DNA from: Flavobacteriaceae bacterium | Lineage (GTDB): Bacteria > Bacteroidota > Bacteroidia > Flavobacteriales > Flavobacteriaceae | Direction of reading: 5' to 3' | Assembly (NCBI GenBank): GCA_003443635.1 | Contig: CP031964.1 | Coordinates: 900,321-964,320 of the forward strand | Length of the DNA stretch: 64,000 bases | Shown here: positions 24,427 to 30,618 of the stretch, piece after piece | How the letters are laid out: the number at the start of each line of letters is the position of its first letter | Position numbering within the stretch: position 1 is the stretch's first letter | The notes under the pieces: model-generated | The model's database searches: none | Told to the model about the DNA's origin: nothing | The model's input: only the letters and a program-made list of their open reading frames with translations | Translations under genes and position numbers: made by a program

Positions 24427-24975
24427 TTGAAACATCTTTTTATAAAATATAAGTCGGTAATACAATTTATACTTACGTTTTTAGGTGTATATATAGTACT
24501 ATCTTTATCTTATAAATTTTACCTAGATTATTCCAATAAATCATCATCTGCAGATTATATAACAAGCCAAGTAGCCAAGCAAAGCGAATCTTTAATTGGG
24601 GTTACTGGTTATGAAGCACAAGTGTTGCCTCACCCAAACGAACCATCAATAAAAATTTTAGTGAACGATAAATATATTGGACGTGTGATAGAAGGATGCA
24701 ACTCTATAAGTATTATTGTTTTGTTTGTATCTTTTATAATAGCTTTCAAAGGAAAATGGAAAACAACTCTATTATACTTATTGGTAGGAAGTGTTTTAAT
24801 TTATATTGTGAATTTAATTAGAATAGTCATTTTATCCATAGGGTTATATGAATACCCAGAAAAAGAAAAACTACTACATACTGTTATTTTCCCGTTAATT
24901 ATCTACGGAATGGTTTTTTTATTATGGATGTTTTGGGTAAACCGATTTAAAACATTAAACCCTAAAAATGAATAA
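24427..24975 (+). CDS. xrtF: Exosortase family protein XrtF
   Basis: 182-residue membrane protein, a cysteine transpeptidase-like exosortase of the F type found in Flavobacteriia. The catalytic set is visible: Cys91 in EGCNSISI, Arg132 in NLIRIVIL and His151 in LLHTVIFP. About four or five transmembrane helices, with an extracytoplasmic stretch at 33-85. The start is TTG at 24427; no ATG is available upstream in frame. The partner gene overlaps its 3' end by 8 bases. Substrates with the matching C-terminal sorting signal are not seen in this window. Confidence 0.9.
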   Translation: MKHLFIKYKSVIQFILTFLGVYIVLSLSYKFYLDYSNKSSSADYITSQVAKQSESLIGVTGYEAQVLPHPNEPSIKILVNDKYIGRVIEGCNSISIIVLFVSFIIAFKGKWKTTLLYLLVGSVLIYIVNLIRIVILSIGLYEYPEKEKLLHTVIFPLIIYGMVFLLWMFWVNRFKTLNPKNE

Positions 24976-25396
24976 GATTATCAAATATGGTTTAGTAAGC
25001 TTACTAATATTTTTATTGGTTTTAATTCGTGTATTTCAAGATGAATTATTTTACGATCCTTATTTGCAATTTTTTCAAAACGATTTTTTATATATAGACT
25101 CTCCTCGTCGAGAAGTATTTAAATTAACTTTATTTACAACCTTAAGATTTATACTAAATACAGCATTATCACTAGGGATTATTAAATTGCTTTTAACAGA
25201 TAAAAGCATTGTAAAGTTTTCAGCAATACTATATGGTATTGCATATGTTATTTTATTAATTTTATTCTTGTATTTTGTGTTAAACCCAAGACAAGAAGAC
25301 TATTATATCTTTTTTAATATTCGAAGATTTCTTATTCAACCTATAATTTTAATCGTGTTATTACCTGCATTTTATTATTATAAATTAAAACAGTAA
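24968..25396 (+). CDS. Exosortase F system-associated membrane protein
   Basis: 142 residues with four predicted transmembrane helices and the polar motif DPYLQFFQNDFLY after the first helix, and NPRQEDYYIFFNIRRFLIQP between the third and fourth. This agrees with the small membrane protein that accompanies XrtF in Flavobacteriia. The 8-base overlap with xrtF implies coupled translation and perhaps a complex. Molecular role unknown. Confidence 0.85.
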   Translation: MNKIIKYGLVSLLIFLLVLIRVFQDELFYDPYLQFFQNDFLYIDSPRREVFKLTLFTTLRFILNTALSLGIIKLLLTDKSIVKFSAILYGIAYVILLILFLYFVLNPRQEDYYIFFNIRRFLIQPIILIVLLPAFYYYKLKQ

Positions 25397-25440: not shown

Positions 25441-25448
25441 TATCTTTG
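25441..25448 (+). promoter_or_regulatory. Promoter of the metal-handling unit
   Basis: TATCTTTG, the same octamer as at the initiator tRNA and miaB promoters, followed by TACC. Transcription should start near 25452-25455, practically on the TTG chosen as the first codon. Confidence 0.6.
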
Positions 25449-25452
25449 TACC

Positions 25453-25860
25453 TTGTTAAAAGAATTATTACATAAAGTTTTTTCTATAAGTTTAGCGCTA
25501 ATAGTATTGTGTTCAACACTATCATTTACTGTTGAAAAACATTATTGTGGATCTTTTTTAGTTGATGTAGCGTTGTTTAATTCTGTTGAAAAATGCGGAA
25601 TGGACACTGTTATGAATTCTAATGAGAATGAAAAATCATGTTGTAATGATGAGATTGAAGTTATTCAAGGTCAAGATGAGTTAAAAGCGCTTACTTTTGA
25701 TGATTTAAATTTTGAACAACAGCTTTTTATTACCGTTTATACATATTCTTATATTAATTCTTTTAAGGGATTAGAGAATAGAACGATATCTTTTTTAGAA
25801 TATCCACCACCACTTATTGTCAGGCAACTCTTCAAACTTGACGAGGCTTATTTAATTTGA
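25453..25860 (+). CDS. HYC_CC_PP family protein
   Basis: 135 residues. After a hydrophobic N-terminal segment (about 8-24) come the three marks that name the family: HYC (30-32) in EKHYCGSFLVD, CC (63-64) in SCCNDE, and PPP (118-120) in LEYPPPLIV; Cys48 is a further cysteine. The family is known only as a Bacteroidota protein, with no assigned role that I know. I chose TTG at 25453, because a TTG at 25438 is upstream of the transcription start. It opens a six-gene unit rich in metal-binding motifs, so binding of a thiophilic metal outside the cytoplasm is a reasonable inference. Confidence 0.8.
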   Translation: MLKELLHKVFSISLALIVLCSTLSFTVEKHYCGSFLVDVALFNSVEKCGMDTVMNSNENEKSCCNDEIEVIQGQDELKALTFDDLNFEQQLFITVYTYSYINSFKGLENRTISFLEYPPPLIVRQLFKLDEAYLI

Positions 25861-25970
25861 TTTTTTATTATTTCTAATAACAATGCGCATGAGTATTGTT
25901 ACTTGATTGTATACCAATATTTGGATGCAATTATAATTTTATAGAAAAATAATAATCAAAAAGAACAATA

Positions 25971-26738
25971 ATGAAAATATATATAGGATCATTTATAGCA
26001 ATGCTATTTAGTGTTGTTAGTTTAGCGCAGGGTCCTCCAATTACTTTAGATAAAATTATTTTATTAGGAAGTGACAGTTTTACTGCGAGAACACTAATAG
26101 AATATAGAAATACTGAGCGAGGAAATTTTGTATATATTCCTTTTAGTCTAAGTTATTTACCTACCTCTAATACATCTATAGCTATAGATATTCCATTTAT
26201 TACCTATGATTTTGAATCTGCTTCCAATGGAAGTGGTTTAGCAGATATAAGATTAACTGGTAAATATCAGTTTTATCAAAAAAATGCTACAGGCAAAACA
26301 TTTAGAGTATTAGCAAAAACAGAGCAAACTTTACCAACAGGAGAAGAACTGGATTTATTAGGATTGAGTACAGGATTGTATCAAGGATACTATGGTATAT
26401 TAACAGGTTATGAATCTTTAAAATTTGGAATAACTAGTGAATTGGGATATAATTGGATTCCTAATGGAACCTTAGATCATTTAAGATACAAGCTAGGGTT
26501 TGGATTGCCTCTATTAAAACCACAATTCCCTAATAAACAAATCAACTTGTATTTTGAATATAGCAATTTTTGGATTTTTGAAAGAAATTGGTATCAATTG
26601 CTATATGCACAGGGAATACAGTATGCAGGAAAGGATTTCACAATAGATGTTTCCGTTCAAGTTCCTTTGGTGAATGATGTAGATACTGGTCGTGAATTGA
26701 ATTACTCCTTATTCCTTGGTGGTAGATACACTTTTTAA
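25971..26738 (+). CDS. Probable outer-membrane beta-barrel protein
   Basis: 255 residues. Signal peptide ending at SLAQG, then alternating amphipathic strands (FVYIPFSLSYLP, TSIAIDIPFITYDF, ADIRLTGKYQFY, FRVLAKTEQTLPTG) and a terminal Phe (LGGRYTF), typical of an outer-membrane barrel. The SGLADIRLTGKYQF and LPTGEE segments are like those of the phenol-degradation MetA / transporter-like barrels. It lies between the HYC_CC_PP gene and the first HMA gene, so passage or binding of a metal or a metal complex is inferred from context. The 110-base gap before it holds a weak hairpin only. Confidence 0.75.
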   Translation: MKIYIGSFIAMLFSVVSLAQGPPITLDKIILLGSDSFTARTLIEYRNTERGNFVYIPFSLSYLPTSNTSIAIDIPFITYDFESASNGSGLADIRLTGKYQFYQKNATGKTFRVLAKTEQTLPTGEELDLLGLSTGLYQGYYGILTGYESLKFGITSELGYNWIPNGTLDHLRYKLGFGLPLLKPQFPNKQINLYFEYSNFWIFERNWYQLLYAQGIQYAGKDFTIDVSVQVPLVNDVDTGRELNYSLFLGGRYTF

Positions 26739-26767
26739 AATATTATAAATAATTAAAAAAATAAAAA

Positions 26768-27115
26768 ATGAAAACAAAAATAATAATGACACTGTTTCTA
26801 GGATTGGTTTCAGTATCAACAATACAAGCTCAAAAAGAACGTGATAGTTTTAAAATTCAAGTGGATGGATTAGGATGTCCTTTTTGTGCTTATGGGTTAG
26901 AAAAGAAATTTAAAGAATTTAAAGGAATAAAAAACGTAGCTATAGATATTGAAACAGGTGATTTTACTTTCACTTACCCGACAGAAAAGAAATTAACTAT
27001 TTTACAAGTTGAAGAACAAGTGAAAAAAGCAGGTTATACTCCAGTTACTATGAAAATTACTAGAGCCAATGGAGAAATAGAAGTTTCTGAAAGTAAAATA
27101 GAAAATACACCTTAA
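26768..27115 (+). CDS. Exported heavy-metal-associated (HMA) domain protein
   Basis: 115 residues: a signal peptide (to about TIQAQ) and one ferredoxin-like HMA domain with the metal site GCPFC (Cys37, Cys40) at the usual place in the first loop. HMA domains bind copper(I), zinc or mercury. Export makes this a periplasmic metallochaperone or sensor rather than a cytosolic CopZ. It begins 29 bases after the barrel gene and ends 10 bases before the NHL-repeat gene. Confidence 0.88.
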   Translation: MKTKIIMTLFLGLVSVSTIQAQKERDSFKIQVDGLGCPFCAYGLEKKFKEFKGIKNVAIDIETGDFTFTYPTEKKLTILQVEEQVKKAGYTPVTMKITRANGEIEVSESKIENTP

Positions 27116-27125
27116 GTATCTGAAA

Positions 27126-27956
27126 ATGAAGAAAATTTTAATAATGCTAAGTTTTACTGTAATTATTGCTAGCTGTAACTCCTCTAAAAAGGAGATAGCT
27201 AAGAAATGGGTATTACAGGAAACAATTAATATAGACGAAGTCAACCCAATTGGTATTACCTTAAAAGGAGAAGAACTGTGGTTATCTGATGCAGACCATA
27301 ATCGATTAGTAAATATTGATAATAAAGGAAATATACTTAAAATTATAGATGGCTTTGATAGACCAATGCATATTTCTGCTAATGCTACTTCTATTTATGT
27401 GCCTCAATACGGATCTGATACGATTGCAATTGTAAATAAGGATGTACGAAAGGTATTGCCCATAGAAATAAAATTAGACGCTCCAGCTGGAGTGTCTAAT
27501 TTTAAAAATGAGATAGCGATTGCTGATTTTTACAACAATCAAATTCATTATTTCAATGGCACACAATGGAATAGTTTTGGAAGTGAAGGCAATGCTAATG
27601 GACAATTTTATTACCCTACAGATGTGCAGATTACGTTAGATGAAATTTGGGTTGCTGATGCTTATAATCATCGAGTTCAGGTGTTTGATAAAACAGGTAA
27701 TTTTTTAAAAGCAATTGCTTATAATCAAGGAATAAATGCTGCTACAGGAATTTATGTTTCAGAAAATGAAGTTTTTGTAACTGATTTTGAAAATGACCGT
27801 GTTTTAATTTTTGATCATCAAGGAAATTTAAAACAACAATTAAAAGATCAAGTGCATAAACCTACGGATATGATTATAAAAGGTGAAACTTTATATACTC
27901 TTAATTATCGAAAAGGCACTTTGAATTCTTATTTTCAAGAACCCATAAAAAAATGA
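27126..27956 (+). CDS. NHL-repeat beta-propeller lipoprotein
   Basis: 276 residues. Lipobox IIASC with Cys17 as the anchor. The rest is a propeller of NHL-type blades: LWLSDADHNRLVNIDNKGN, IWVADAYNHRVQVFDKTGN and VFVTDFENDRVLIFDHQGN are the clearest three. Such propellers bind ligands or partner proteins. Placed between an HMA protein and a TonB-dependent receptor, it may be a surface or periplasmic partner of that receptor. No catalytic motif is seen. Confidence 0.85.
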   Translation: MKKILIMLSFTVIIASCNSSKKEIAKKWVLQETINIDEVNPIGITLKGEELWLSDADHNRLVNIDNKGNILKIIDGFDRPMHISANATSIYVPQYGSDTIAIVNKDVRKVLPIEIKLDAPAGVSNFKNEIAIADFYNNQIHYFNGTQWNSFGSEGNANGQFYYPTDVQITLDEIWVADAYNHRVQVFDKTGNFLKAIAYNQGINAATGIYVSENEVFVTDFENDRVLIFDHQGNLKQQLKDQVHKPTDMIIKGETLYTLNYRKGTLNSYFQEPIKK

Positions 27957-27982
27957 AATAGAAAACTTAAATTATAAATGTA

Positions 27983-30220
27983 TTGAAACACATTATATAT
28001 ATCATATTATTATTTCCTATTGTACTTTTTTCTCAAAATGATTTAAAAGGTATAGTGATGGAAGTAAATGAAAATAATGAAGAAATTCCTCTTGGAGGAG
28101 CTAGTATATTCTGGCTCGATACCACAATAGGGACAACGACAGATTTTGATGGAACATTTACAATTCCTTATAAAAAGGAATATGCAAAGTTGGTTATAAG
28201 TTATGTGGGTTTTAAAACAGATACACTAACAATTACAAATGTTAAACCTATTAAGCATATTCTACAGTCAGAAAATAGTTTGGACGAAGTTTCTATTACT
28301 TCTCAAAAACAAGCTACACGAAAATCGTATTTGCAAGCGGCAAATATTTTAAATATTAGTAGCGATGAGTTACTTAAAGCTGCTTGTTGTAATCTGTCTG
28401 AAAGTTTTGAAACCAATCCGTCTATCGATGTTAATTTTGCTGATGCCGTTTCTGGAACAAAACAGATAAAATTATTAGGTTTAACAAGCCCATATATTTT
28501 AATCGCTACTGAAAATATTCCATCTATACGAGGTGCTTCGCAAGCGTACGGGTTGAGCTTTATTCCAGGTACTTGGGTAGAGAGCATTCAAATTACTAAA
28601 GGAGCAGGAAGTGTTATTAATGGCTTTGAAAGTTTTTCAGGGCAGATCAATGCAGAACTTCAAAAACCAAGAGAAAATGATAAGCTATTTGTTAATGCAT
28701 ATGCATCTGGGAGTGCACGATTTGAACTGAATACACATTTAAATAAAAAAGTAAGTGATCGATGGGATACAGGTTTGTTTGTTCATGGTAATTTACGAGA
28801 ATCCAAATTTGACAGAAATAACGATTCGTTTCTGGATGTACCTTTAATGAAGCAAGTTAATGTGATTAATCGTTGGCAATATACCGATACTCAAAATGGG
28901 TTTGTGAGCTTCATTAACTTTAGATATCTCAATGACGAAAAACAATCCGGTCAAACACAATTTAACCCTGATATAGATAGGTTGACAACTAATGCTTGGG
29001 GTAGTGAAATAGATACTGAGCGTTTTGAGGTGTCTGCTAAACTGGGTTATGTAAACCCAGAACTACCTTATCAAAGCATTGGAGCTCAATTTGCCTATAG
29101 TAATCATGATCAAAATTCATTTTTTGGATTAAGAACTTATGACATTACGCAAAATAGCCTATACTCTAATATTATCTATAACTCTATTTTAGGAGATACT
29201 CGACATAAATTTAAAACAGGAATAAGTTTTACTTATGATGATTATGATGAACTAGTTTTAGGGGATGTGTTTAAGAGAACTGAGCGCTCTGTAGGAGGTT
29301 TTTTTGAATATACATTTGATAATATAGATGATCTTAATTTAACCGCAGGTGTACGAATAGATACTCATAATTTATTAGGAACATTTATAACACCTAGATT
29401 TCATTTACGGTATACACCTTGGGAAAGATCGGCATTAAAAGCATCTTTTGGTAGAGGAAAGCGTAGTGCTAATATTTTTGCTGAAAATCAGAAATTTTTT
29501 GCAAGTTCACGATCTATTAATATTTTAAATTCAGACGGACCAATTTATGGGTTAGAACCTGAAATCGCTTGGAATTATGGAGTGTCGTTTCTTCAAGGAT
29601 TTAATCTTTTTGGAAGAAAAGCTGATGTAACATTAGATTTTTATAGAACAGATTTCCAAAATCAAGTAATAGTAGATTCTGAAAATCCTTTAGAGCTTAA
29701 TTTTTATAATTTAGAAGGTGATAGTTTTGCTAATAGTTTTCAAGCTGAATTTAATTATAATTTAGCAGAACGATTAGATTTACGATTTGCATATAAATTT
29801 TATGATGTAAAAACCGATTTTCTTTCAGGAGAATTGCAAACTCCTTTAACCCCTAAAAATCGAATATTTGCCAATACATCCTATGAGACCAAACAAAAAG
29901 ATAATGAAGCTCAATGGAAGTTTGATGCTACATTTAATTGGATAGGAGAGCAGCGCTTTCCTTCAACTGTATCTAGCCCTATAGAATTTCAACGATCAAA
30001 CTTTACACCAACAGTTATAACACTTAATGCACAAATAACTAAAGTGTTTTCTAAAACTTTTGAAGTATATTTAGGAGGCGAAAACATAAATAATATAAGA
30101 CAGGATAATCCTGTTGTTAGTAACGATAACCCTTTTGGACAAAACTTTGATACTACTTTTGTGTATGGTCCAATTTTTGGAAGTACATATTATGTAGGAT
30201 TAAGATTTAAAATTGAATAA
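27983..30220 (+). CDS. TonB-dependent receptor with N-terminal carboxypeptidase-like domain
   Basis: 745 residues. Signal peptide to about residue 17, a carboxypeptidase-D regulatory-like domain (about 20-95, GASIFWLDTTIGTTTDFDGTFTIP), then a plug domain and a 22-strand type barrel ending in VGLRFKIE. Just before the plug is a Cys-Cys pair (135-136) in LLKAACCNLSESF, which ordinary siderophore or sugar receptors lack and which I associate with receptors located next to HMA genes. The start is TTG at 27983. It sits 26 bases after the NHL gene and one base before the next HMA gene. It probably imports a metal or metal complex. Confidence 0.88.
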   Translation: MKHIIYIILLFPIVLFSQNDLKGIVMEVNENNEEIPLGGASIFWLDTTIGTTTDFDGTFTIPYKKEYAKLVISYVGFKTDTLTITNVKPIKHILQSENSLDEVSITSQKQATRKSYLQAANILNISSDELLKAACCNLSESFETNPSIDVNFADAVSGTKQIKLLGLTSPYILIATENIPSIRGASQAYGLSFIPGTWVESIQITKGAGSVINGFESFSGQINAELQKPRENDKLFVNAYASGSARFELNTHLNKKVSDRWDTGLFVHGNLRESKFDRNNDSFLDVPLMKQVNVINRWQYTDTQNGFVSFINFRYLNDEKQSGQTQFNPDIDRLTTNAWGSEIDTERFEVSAKLGYVNPELPYQSIGAQFAYSNHDQNSFFGLRTYDITQNSLYSNIIYNSILGDTRHKFKTGISFTYDDYDELVLGDVFKRTERSVGGFFEYTFDNIDDLNLTAGVRIDTHNLLGTFITPRFHLRYTPWERSALKASFGRGKRSANIFAENQKFFASSRSINILNSDGPIYGLEPEIAWNYGVSFLQGFNLFGRKADVTLDFYRTDFQNQVIVDSENPLELNFYNLEGDSFANSFQAEFNYNLAERLDLRFAYKFYDVKTDFLSGELQTPLTPKNRIFANTSYETKQKDNEAQWKFDATFNWIGEQRFPSTVSSPIEFQRSNFTPTVITLNAQITKVFSKTFEVYLGGENINNIRQDNPVVSNDNPFGQNFDTTFVYGPIFGSTYYVGLRFKIE

Positions 30221-30221
30221 A

Positions 30222-30578
30222 ATGAAAAAAATAATAGTATTGTTAATAGCACTATGTTTAAGTGTAGTAACATTTGCTCAAAATAAAAATGAAAAAGCGT
30301 CAATTGAAGTAGATGGTGTGTGTTTAATGTGCAAACTGCGTATTGAGAAAGCTGCTATAAAAACCAAAGGAGTTAAATCTGCTGTTTGGAATATAAAATC
30401 TCACGAGTTAAAACTTATTTACGATCAACGTAAAACTAATTTAAAGTCAATTCAACAAAATATTGCAGCTGTTGGGCATGATACTAAAGCAATAAAAGCA
30501 ACTGAAGAAGCTTATAATAGTGTAGATCCTTGTTGCAAATATCGTGATGAAAAAGTCGTGAATGATCATAAAAACTAA
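30222..30578 (+). CDS. Second exported HMA-domain protein
   Basis: 118 residues. Signal peptide to about FAQ20, HMA domain with GVCLMC (Cys34, Cys37), and in addition a C-terminal Cys-Cys pair (104-105) in DPCCKYRDE that the first HMA protein lacks. The ATG at 30222 lies one base after the receptor stop; an upstream TTG at 30213 lies within the receptor gene and is not preferred. Likely a periplasmic metal carrier accepting metal from the receptor. A strong terminator follows at 30582. Confidence 0.88.
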   Translation: MKKIIVLLIALCLSVVTFAQNKNEKASIEVDGVCLMCKLRIEKAAIKTKGVKSAVWNIKSHELKLIYDQRKTNLKSIQQNIAAVGHDTKAIKATEEAYNSVDPCCKYRDEKVVNDHKN

Positions 30579-30581
30579 TTG

Positions 30582-30618
30582 AAAAAGCCAGAAATTAATT
30601 TCTGGCTTTTTTTTTATA
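30582..30618 (+). terminator. Terminator of the metal-handling unit
   Basis: A perfect 15-base arm palindrome (30582-30596 with 30597-30611) with A5 and T runs, the T run continuing to about 30615. It begins four bases after the stop of the second HMA gene. Confidence 0.9.

Follow-up and report, generated by a model that had tools for sequence, protein, structure and literature searches.

What does a small protein of the HYC_CC_PP family, to which the name of its model (NF047658) gives no role and of which we found no account in the literature searched, do at the head of an envelope metal operon? The question arises from six genes in a 64,000-nucleotide stretch of a Flavobacteriaceae bacterium genome (assembly GCA_003443635.1, contig CP031964.1, positions 900,321 to 964,320; hereafter the window), in which HYC_CC_PP precedes an outer-membrane-type barrel, an HMA-domain protein (HMA1), an NHL lipoprotein, a TonB-dependent receptor and a second HMA protein (HMA2). 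A first-pass annotation had read all six as one periplasmic relay for a thiophilic metal, perhaps copper, with HYC_CC_PP among the relay's partners. Our sequence comparisons suggest that this is probably a copper-handling Bacteroidota operon, most likely one for copper acquisition, under a co-translational (nascent-chain) copper sensor, and that the small first gene appears to be this built-in sensor, not a working part of the machine. More tentatively, HYC_CC_PP may be a leaderless copper-sensing leader clamped at its stop codon, common across Bacteroidia and with no detectable DUF2946 kinship. One leader class would then control several envelope copper machines: the TonB receptor marked by CC, together with HMA; its replacement, a non-TonB barrel accompanied by HMA and NHL; RND efflux; and, in at least one case, an MbnP/MbnH-like pair.

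If these readings hold, a family so far without a known role, present in 185 of 295 sampled Bacteroidia genomes, would gain a function, and Bacteroidota would gain a concrete copper leader beside the two worked-out cases, CruR and CutF. The receptors (at least 590 relatives in one scan) would become a large class of candidate copper receptors, with a TonB-independent barrel module replacing them. The exact bases and residues are named, so the leader idea is open to laboratory test in a flavobacterium.

Open reading frame (ORF) coordinates confirmed the place and strand of the six genes, together with the promoter box and terminator described earlier, and profile scans bore out the earlier identifications: HYC_CC_PP scores 118 bits against a cut-off of 28, HMA1 and HMA2 pass Pfam HMA (PF00403, cut-off 24.8) at 38.8 and 28.6 bits, the fourth protein passes NHL (PF01436) at 66.4 bits, and the receptor passes the TonB barrel, plug and CarbopepD_reg_2 models. 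The barrel had no Pfam match over cut-off (a weak Phenol_MetA_deg match, E = 0.082, fell below it), and signal peptides of the window proteins were assessed by eye. The cysteine pairs noted in HMA1, HMA2 and the receptor are likewise present. The intergenic gaps are 110, 29, 10, 26 and 1 nucleotides; the last four agree with the earlier values, while the first, the largest of the operon, had been given as 111. Because ORF starts were taken as the earliest possible, all gaps are lower bounds. The features are as follows.

25441..25448, forward strand: −7 box TATCTTTG, sigma-A type (TAnnTTTG), a leaderless-type promoter 4 nucleotides before the HYC start
25453..25860, forward strand: HYC_CC_PP protein (NF047658), 135 residues, likely TTG start, UGA stop; proposed copper-sensing leader ORF
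25856..25960, forward strand: predicted RNA structure, a stop-codon stem with two inner hairpins (RNA fold, relatives)
25971..26738, forward strand: outer-membrane-type barrel, 255 residues, opening the barrel-HMA1-NHL module (ORF, relatives' loci)
26768..27115, forward strand: HMA1 (PF00403), 115 residues, signal-like N-terminus, CPFC site
27126..27956, forward strand: NHL beta-propeller lipoprotein (PF01436), 276 residues
27983..30220, forward strand: TonB-dependent receptor (Pfam), 745 residues, TTG start, CC at residues 135-136 (KAACCN) before the plug
30222..30578, forward strand: HMA2 (PF00403), 118 residues, CLMC site and C-terminal CC
30581..30612, forward strand: intrinsic terminator, a hairpin with 14 pairs and a T-run (hairpin search)

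The first gene and the spacer behind it

In 95 of 134 HYC genes an in-frame start follows the end of a TAnnTTTG box by 2 to 9 nucleotides, mostly by 4; the same test picks out 24/1467 ORFs of at least 200 residues, 10/382 divergent heads and 2/126 receptors. Within Flavobacteriaceae, the leaderless-type promoter marks 80/100 HYC genes and 13/1087 control ORFs. In F. psychrophilum this box lies at −12 to −5 from the start site, and leaderless mRNAs make up 5.5% (PMC9723704). The 4-nucleotide spacing therefore places the transcription start site on the start codon. These and the following HYC statistics pool loci found by HYC, receptor or barrel, whose sequences are related and hence not independent (L127 and L204, for instance, probably come from one genome).

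The stop codon is similarly distinctive: UGA closes 91 of 101 HYC genes in Flavobacteriaceae versus 64 of 1043 other ORFs, so we rejected the idea that the bias is shared by the clade's genes at large. A recognised metal gene lies within 400 nucleotides downstream of 121/135 HYC genes, in loci partly chosen by those genes. The median gap after HYC is 51 to 79 nucleotides for the main neighbours; within operons it is about 0 to 24 nucleotides for most pairs, with NHL to P1B (59.5) and HMA to HMA (38) as exceptions.

This spacer is predicted to fold around the stop codon. In the window, UUUGAUU, which holds the HYC stop, is predicted to pair with AAUCAAA 10 nucleotides before the next start codon, and the spacer (25861-25970) folds with a z of −3.77, matched by none of 200 shuffles. 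Mean z over the 106 usable HYC spacers (from 135 genes, lying 40 to 170 nucleotides before a recognised gene) was −2.60, versus −1.47 for generic co-directional gaps (300 of 431 used); receptor or barrel to HMA gaps averaged −1.75 (n = 37) and exoF to HYC gaps −0.19 (n = 35). A closing helix of at least seven pairs near stop and start was found in 70/106 HYC spacers, 67/300 generic gaps, 204/1060 shuffles, 7/37 receptor or barrel to HMA gaps and 10/35 exoF to HYC gaps. At least two stop-codon bases are paired downstream in 79 of 106 HYC spacers versus 27 of 87 other gaps, the pairing partner lying a median of 9.5 nucleotides before the next start, and where all three bases are paired the combinations are UGA:UCA (44), UGA:UUA (13), UGA:UUG (1), UAA:UUA (5), UAG:UUA (2) and UAG:CUA (1). 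The stop-codon comparison made alongside the 79-of-106 pairing count took in 1450 ORFs, those truncated at the end of a locus being excluded. Two small clade alignments contained pairs changed on both sides in 6/25 and 5/21 cases.

In a search confined to the spacers themselves, no strict TAnnTTTG box occurs on the coding strand of the 106 HYC spacers, and 10 of 106 carry one on the other strand. We rejected two other identities for the stem: an intrinsic terminator, since just 9/89 have a T-run behind the 3' arm, and a known RNA family, for which there were three sub-threshold matches only, two of these on the terminator. The leaderless-type promoter, the UGA stop, the stop-pairing stem and the lack of a sigma-A box in the spacer together make HYC_CC_PP look like a regulatory leader ORF, and it is probably not a partner in a relay, as it had earlier been cast.

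Features of the protein bear on the same point. C32, C48, C63, C64 and P120 are invariant in 49 sequences, and of the 135 sequences in the wider set 120 have HxC, 125 have PP and 122 have CC ahead of PP. Distances towards the C-terminus are nearly fixed (n = 109): the median is 55 residues from CC to the proline run (standard deviation 1.49), 72 from CC to the C-terminus (1.14) and 17 from the proline run to the end, with standard deviations of 1.1 to 1.5 on this side, while the HxC to CC distance is loose (4.0). A fixed C-terminal ruler with a loose N-terminal one fits a nascent chain measured from the ribosome, and could fit a folded domain as well. A structure model shows strands and a helix, with a predicted local distance difference test (pLDDT) of 77.7 and a predicted template-modelling score (pTM) of 0.39, and a sequence search against solved structures (E up to 1) returned no match.

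We propose that the nascent HYC chain would bind Cu(I) through its cysteines during export, that metal binding would alter a pause at the C-terminal PP motif or the UGA stop, and that the ribosome would thereby hold, or not hold, the stem open, freeing the start region of the next gene. TnaC provides an example of a pause at termination. By analogy, the conserved HYC C-terminus, together with UGA in Flavobacteriaceae, suggests a TnaC-like pause at termination.

A conserved trio and two alternating modules

HYC_CC_PP, HMA and the receptor form a conserved trio across Bacteroidia. Receptors matching our profile A1 (E up to 1e-60) occur in 222 of 295 sampled Bacteroidia genomes. Conserved co-occurrence, which the first-pass annotation had expected of such a unit, was borne out: 77 of 80 named receptor loci have a same-strand HYC gene upstream and 78 of 80 an HMA gene downstream, the misses being contig ends except in L124, where RND, CopA and adaptor genes lie upstream. 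Among 20 regions fetched by HYC, 7 have receptor and HMA neighbours and 11 an RND operon, in one (L050) HYC stands beside both kinds, and the last is L042, described below.

Since profile A1 was built from loci reached via HYC, and one of two genome-contig scan patterns contained CC, we claim conservation of the receptor cysteine pair only from the best 30 receptors of the class search and from 20 weaker ones, because there the profile was used but CC was not required. Among the best 30, KAACCN and an adjacent HMA gene are found in 30/30 and HYC, by hidden Markov model (HMM), in 25/30, one miss being the window itself, where HYC lies outside the flank. All 20 weaker receptors have CC, and 13 of the 20 have HYC by HMM; an HMA-bearing gene adjoins 17 of them and is fused to one more, lies at a distance in L164 and was not seen in L171. 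The motif is present in 124 of 127 receptor-like ORFs in the main locus set (the three without it are lower-scoring second receptors there), and across 43 receptors the invariant columns include no cysteine other than C135 and C136. In four of the seven weaker-receptor loci without HYC by HMM (L165, L171, L175 and L180), a small cysteine-rich ORF that the HYC profile missed was seen by eye in the HYC position before the receptor; these are possible further leader families.

Of 110 receptor-adjacent HMA proteins, 109 have CxxC and 108 a second CC. In five loci an HMA-like domain precedes the receptor in one reading frame; L180, L220 and L223 pass the Pfam HMA cut-off, L219 falls just under it (23.9 versus 24.8), and L221 has no match and was recognised by eye only. 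Because of these fusions, HMA is the likely direct partner of the receptor. Searched by sequence against solved structures (E up to 1e-5), the receptor had no match, and Foldseek of its model returned a generic TonB receptor fold (PfeA first, OprC first at rank 37), a ranking that therefore gives no verdict on substrate. Most of residues 100-222 of the model are below pLDDT 50, so the position of the CC pair cannot be read from it.

The remaining three genes are a second module, barrel-HMA1-NHL, that normally stands in place of receptor-HMA2, and the window holds both. Among 249 Flavobacteriaceae the barrel is found in 21, the receptor (E up to 1e-200) in 151 and both in 2, namely the window's genome and G369 (Fisher p = 6e-7, in a test that ignores kinship and with a receptor threshold that would miss weaker receptors). 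Three named Maribacter loci likewise hold both. All 18 barrel loci fetched have the order barrel, HMA, NHL, with HYC ahead in 15. In L202, L205, L209, L210 and L214 the module has GAF or xrtF genes on one side and groEL on the other, a neighbourhood common to the window and many receptor loci, and in L215 it lies beside GAF and xrtF genes; none of these has a receptor there. CPFC occurs in all 20 barrel-module HMA proteins, and in 17 of them it is joined by a second HMA-type site, CxMC with a C-terminal CC. The window splits these two site types between CPFC in HMA1 and the CxMC type with CC in HMA2 beside the receptor. Given the alternation of the modules and the split of the HMA sites, the six genes read as two machines behind one leader, and the single six-gene relay of the first-pass annotation gives way to this arrangement.

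In two barrel loci, L217 and L218, genes resembling those of mercury resistance lie close to barrel-HMA-NHL (L217 has MerA and a MerT-like gene, and the region in L218 is similar), as does a CzcA-like pump headed by an HYC-like small ORF.

Copper as the most likely metal

We identified HMA-MauE and RND genes from sequence patterns or by eye, with HMM scans where named. A P1B ATPase stands in the same gene run in 8 of the 80 receptor loci, an HMA-MauE-like membrane protein in 29 (20 between HYC and the receptor, 9 downstream) and neither in 43, by pattern search. All eight ATPases carry CPC, YN and MxxSS, the P1B-1 copper signature. Three ATPases, from L114, L124 and the barrel locus L206, score 582 to 589 bits against the copper model TIGR01511 (cut-off 397). 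All three RND pumps scanned behind HYC (L036, L040, L046) pass the CusA/CzcA model, and in L042 (9190-11714) the genes led by HYC_CC_PP encode MbnP and an MbnH-like di-haem protein, a copper-linked pair.

In the window's own genome, a TIGR01511 search returned one sub-cut-off ATPase of 795 residues and one 20-bit fragment. The 795-residue protein has a PF12156 domain and adjoins ccoN, the CcoI arrangement, and since the search gave no other copper-type ATPase, the copper is likely to go to cbb3 oxidase assembly. The P1B-1 ATPases, the CusA/CzcA pumps and the CcoI-type ATPase beside ccoN thus make copper likely, with a supply role. Together with the conserved trio and the HMA-receptor fusions, the ATPases and HYC-headed pumps uphold the earlier suggestion of a thiophilic-metal envelope unit, and copper is most likely the metal that this conserved unit serves. 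In the route that we propose, the CC-marked receptor would carry copper over the outer membrane and hand it to its partner HMA2, while barrel, HMA1 and NHL lipoprotein would form an alternative route, usually in the receptor's place and in the window beside it.

Proteins that combine an N-terminal HMA domain with a MauE/DoxX-like membrane part turn up repeatedly in HYC operons (L051, L053, L064, L079, L086, L202, L205, L207 and others) and are candidates for the inner-membrane step; a search of the window's genome, which had no positive control, found none. Near 210 kilobases in the same genome, another TonB receptor (L236) is followed by a ZnuA-family gene and an ATP-binding cassette (ABC) ATPase gene, a group that is probably a zinc or manganese uptake operon.

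Known copper leaders and competing explanations

Two known systems resemble this arrangement. In Rhodobacter capsulatus, CutF (DUF2946) is the first gene ahead of cutOG, with a Sec signal, a cysteine motif, a proline-rich C-terminus and an intergenic stem-loop before the next gene (PMC9973294); HYC shares these features, its stem-loop by prediction. The published survey of CutF-like proteins required PP within the last 15 residues and found RND and TonB neighbours and many Bacteroidota proteins, as at HYC loci, and section 12 of the paper concerns the spacer lengths and signal sequences of neighbours, not stem conservation (PMC9973294). HYC differs from CutF in its leaderless-type promoter, in a stop codon inside the stem, in other downstream genes and in having HxC, C and CC where CutF has CxxxC. 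CruR of Bordetella pertussis, which heads bfrG/crtA, likewise is a small exported-type ORF with a cysteine motif at the head of a copper TonB receptor operon and has a fixed spacing from that motif to a C-terminal Pro-Pro motif, but works with Rho termination, a 162-nucleotide spacer and RAPP 3 residues from the end (PMC9426467, PMC12914433). For CutF, copper binding is proposed to delay export, so that the ribosome opens the stem shielding the next start (PMC9973294), and for CruR the proposal is that copper lifts a pause and turns off the receptor (PMC9426467). HYC_CC_PP has in common with these leaders its place as first gene of a same-strand metal operon, the Cys to Pro-Pro spacing and a predicted stem-loop over the next start, and lacks their DUF2946 domain; as a member of DUF2946 it was rejected, none of 49 members matching PF11162 at E up to 10. 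We saw no other copper leader in Bacteroidota among the literature matches listed.

The receptor also stands apart from described copper receptors. CrtA receptors have no conserved cysteine and a PepSY_TM partner (PMC9426467, PMC12914433), whereas here the CC pair is conserved and the partner is HMA, so that the window receptor shows neither mark of the CrtA family. OprC, like the window receptor, is a TonB receptor proposed for copper and is among the structural matches of our model; its CxxxM-HxM motif, present in the OprC-like receptor proposed in the Bizionia copper paper (PMC11213822), is absent here, C135 and C136 being followed by N-L-S-E without CxxxM. The window locus is also not among the genome's six TIGR01778 (OprC) matches.

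Several observations weigh against a copper-acquisition operon under a nascent-chain sensor. The weakest point is that receptor-type and efflux-type operons should need opposite copper signs under one leader. The promoter signal is weaker outside Flavobacteriaceae (26/61 versus 8/309 controls), and the UGA bias is confined to that family (elsewhere 21/62 versus 77/312). Folding beyond that of shuffles is seen in other operon gaps as well (generic −1.47, receptor or barrel to HMA −1.75), 40 of 106 spacers leave the stop codon partly or wholly unpaired, and the 11 RND-headed loci have UGA in 5 and a paired stop in 6, although in several others of these the stem lies a few bases further on. Within-clade covariation is thin, its term favourable in the first alignment and unfavourable in the second. 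The HxC/PP/CC signature is not universal among the 135 HYC sequences, none of the 49 members matches DUF2946, and PP lies 17 residues from the HYC end, beyond the 15 of the CutF survey. For CruR and CutF, too, arrest had not been demonstrated, according to PMC10987492. The receptor model is of low confidence exactly in the plug and CC region. As to the metal and its direction, the L114, L124 and L206 ATPases also pass the cadmium model TIGR01512, at lower scores (401 to 421, cut-off 313.5), and the exporter-type CopA in the same operon of relatives also fits detoxification.

An alternative is that HYC_CC_PP is a working periplasmic copper-binding chaperone or anchor, a partner of HMA, whose leaderless start and stem would merely tune its expression against that of the genes that follow. 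The signal-like N-terminus and four cysteines invariant in 49 sequences, the strands and helix of the model (pLDDT 77.7 but a pTM of 0.39) and the lack of any sign in our analysis that the product is unstable all agree with such a protein. We nevertheless consider it rather unlikely, as protein function hardly accounts for the promoter geometry, the UGA stop and the stop pairing, and as the same gene stands in front of several machines that are unrelated to one another.

A tolerance unit for copper (or silver), with the HMA proteins as a buffer for envelope copper and the receptor or barrel exporting the metal or sequestering it at the surface, would explain why a CopA-type ATPase stands between HYC and receptor in Maribacter and others and why CusA/CzcA RND operons are likewise headed by HYC. 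To our knowledge, however, TonB receptors of known function import, an HMA domain fused to the receptor fits an acceptor, and the copper-ATPase search of the window's genome gave only the CcoI-type protein and the 20-bit fragment; we regard tolerance as unlikely. Mercury or zinc in place of copper is highly improbable: HMA1 and HMA2 have sub-cut-off matches to MerP and MerTP alongside CopZ, and L217 and L218 supply a mercury setting for barrel-HMA-NHL, but this setting is seen in 2 of 18 barrel loci, the P1B-1 signature is found in 8/8 receptor-locus ATPases, and the genome has another receptor followed by a ZnuA-family gene. Copper acquisition under a nascent-chain sensor is the reading that we prefer.

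Three minor observations concern the surroundings. A scan of viral contigs with the receptor gave no relative. The receptor gene itself seems to begin with TTG, an ATG at 27978 being out of frame and followed by a stop two codons on. Just upstream of the operon, at 24427-25396, lie an XrtF exosortase and its associated membrane protein, a pair that precedes HYC in 39 of the 80 named receptor loci.

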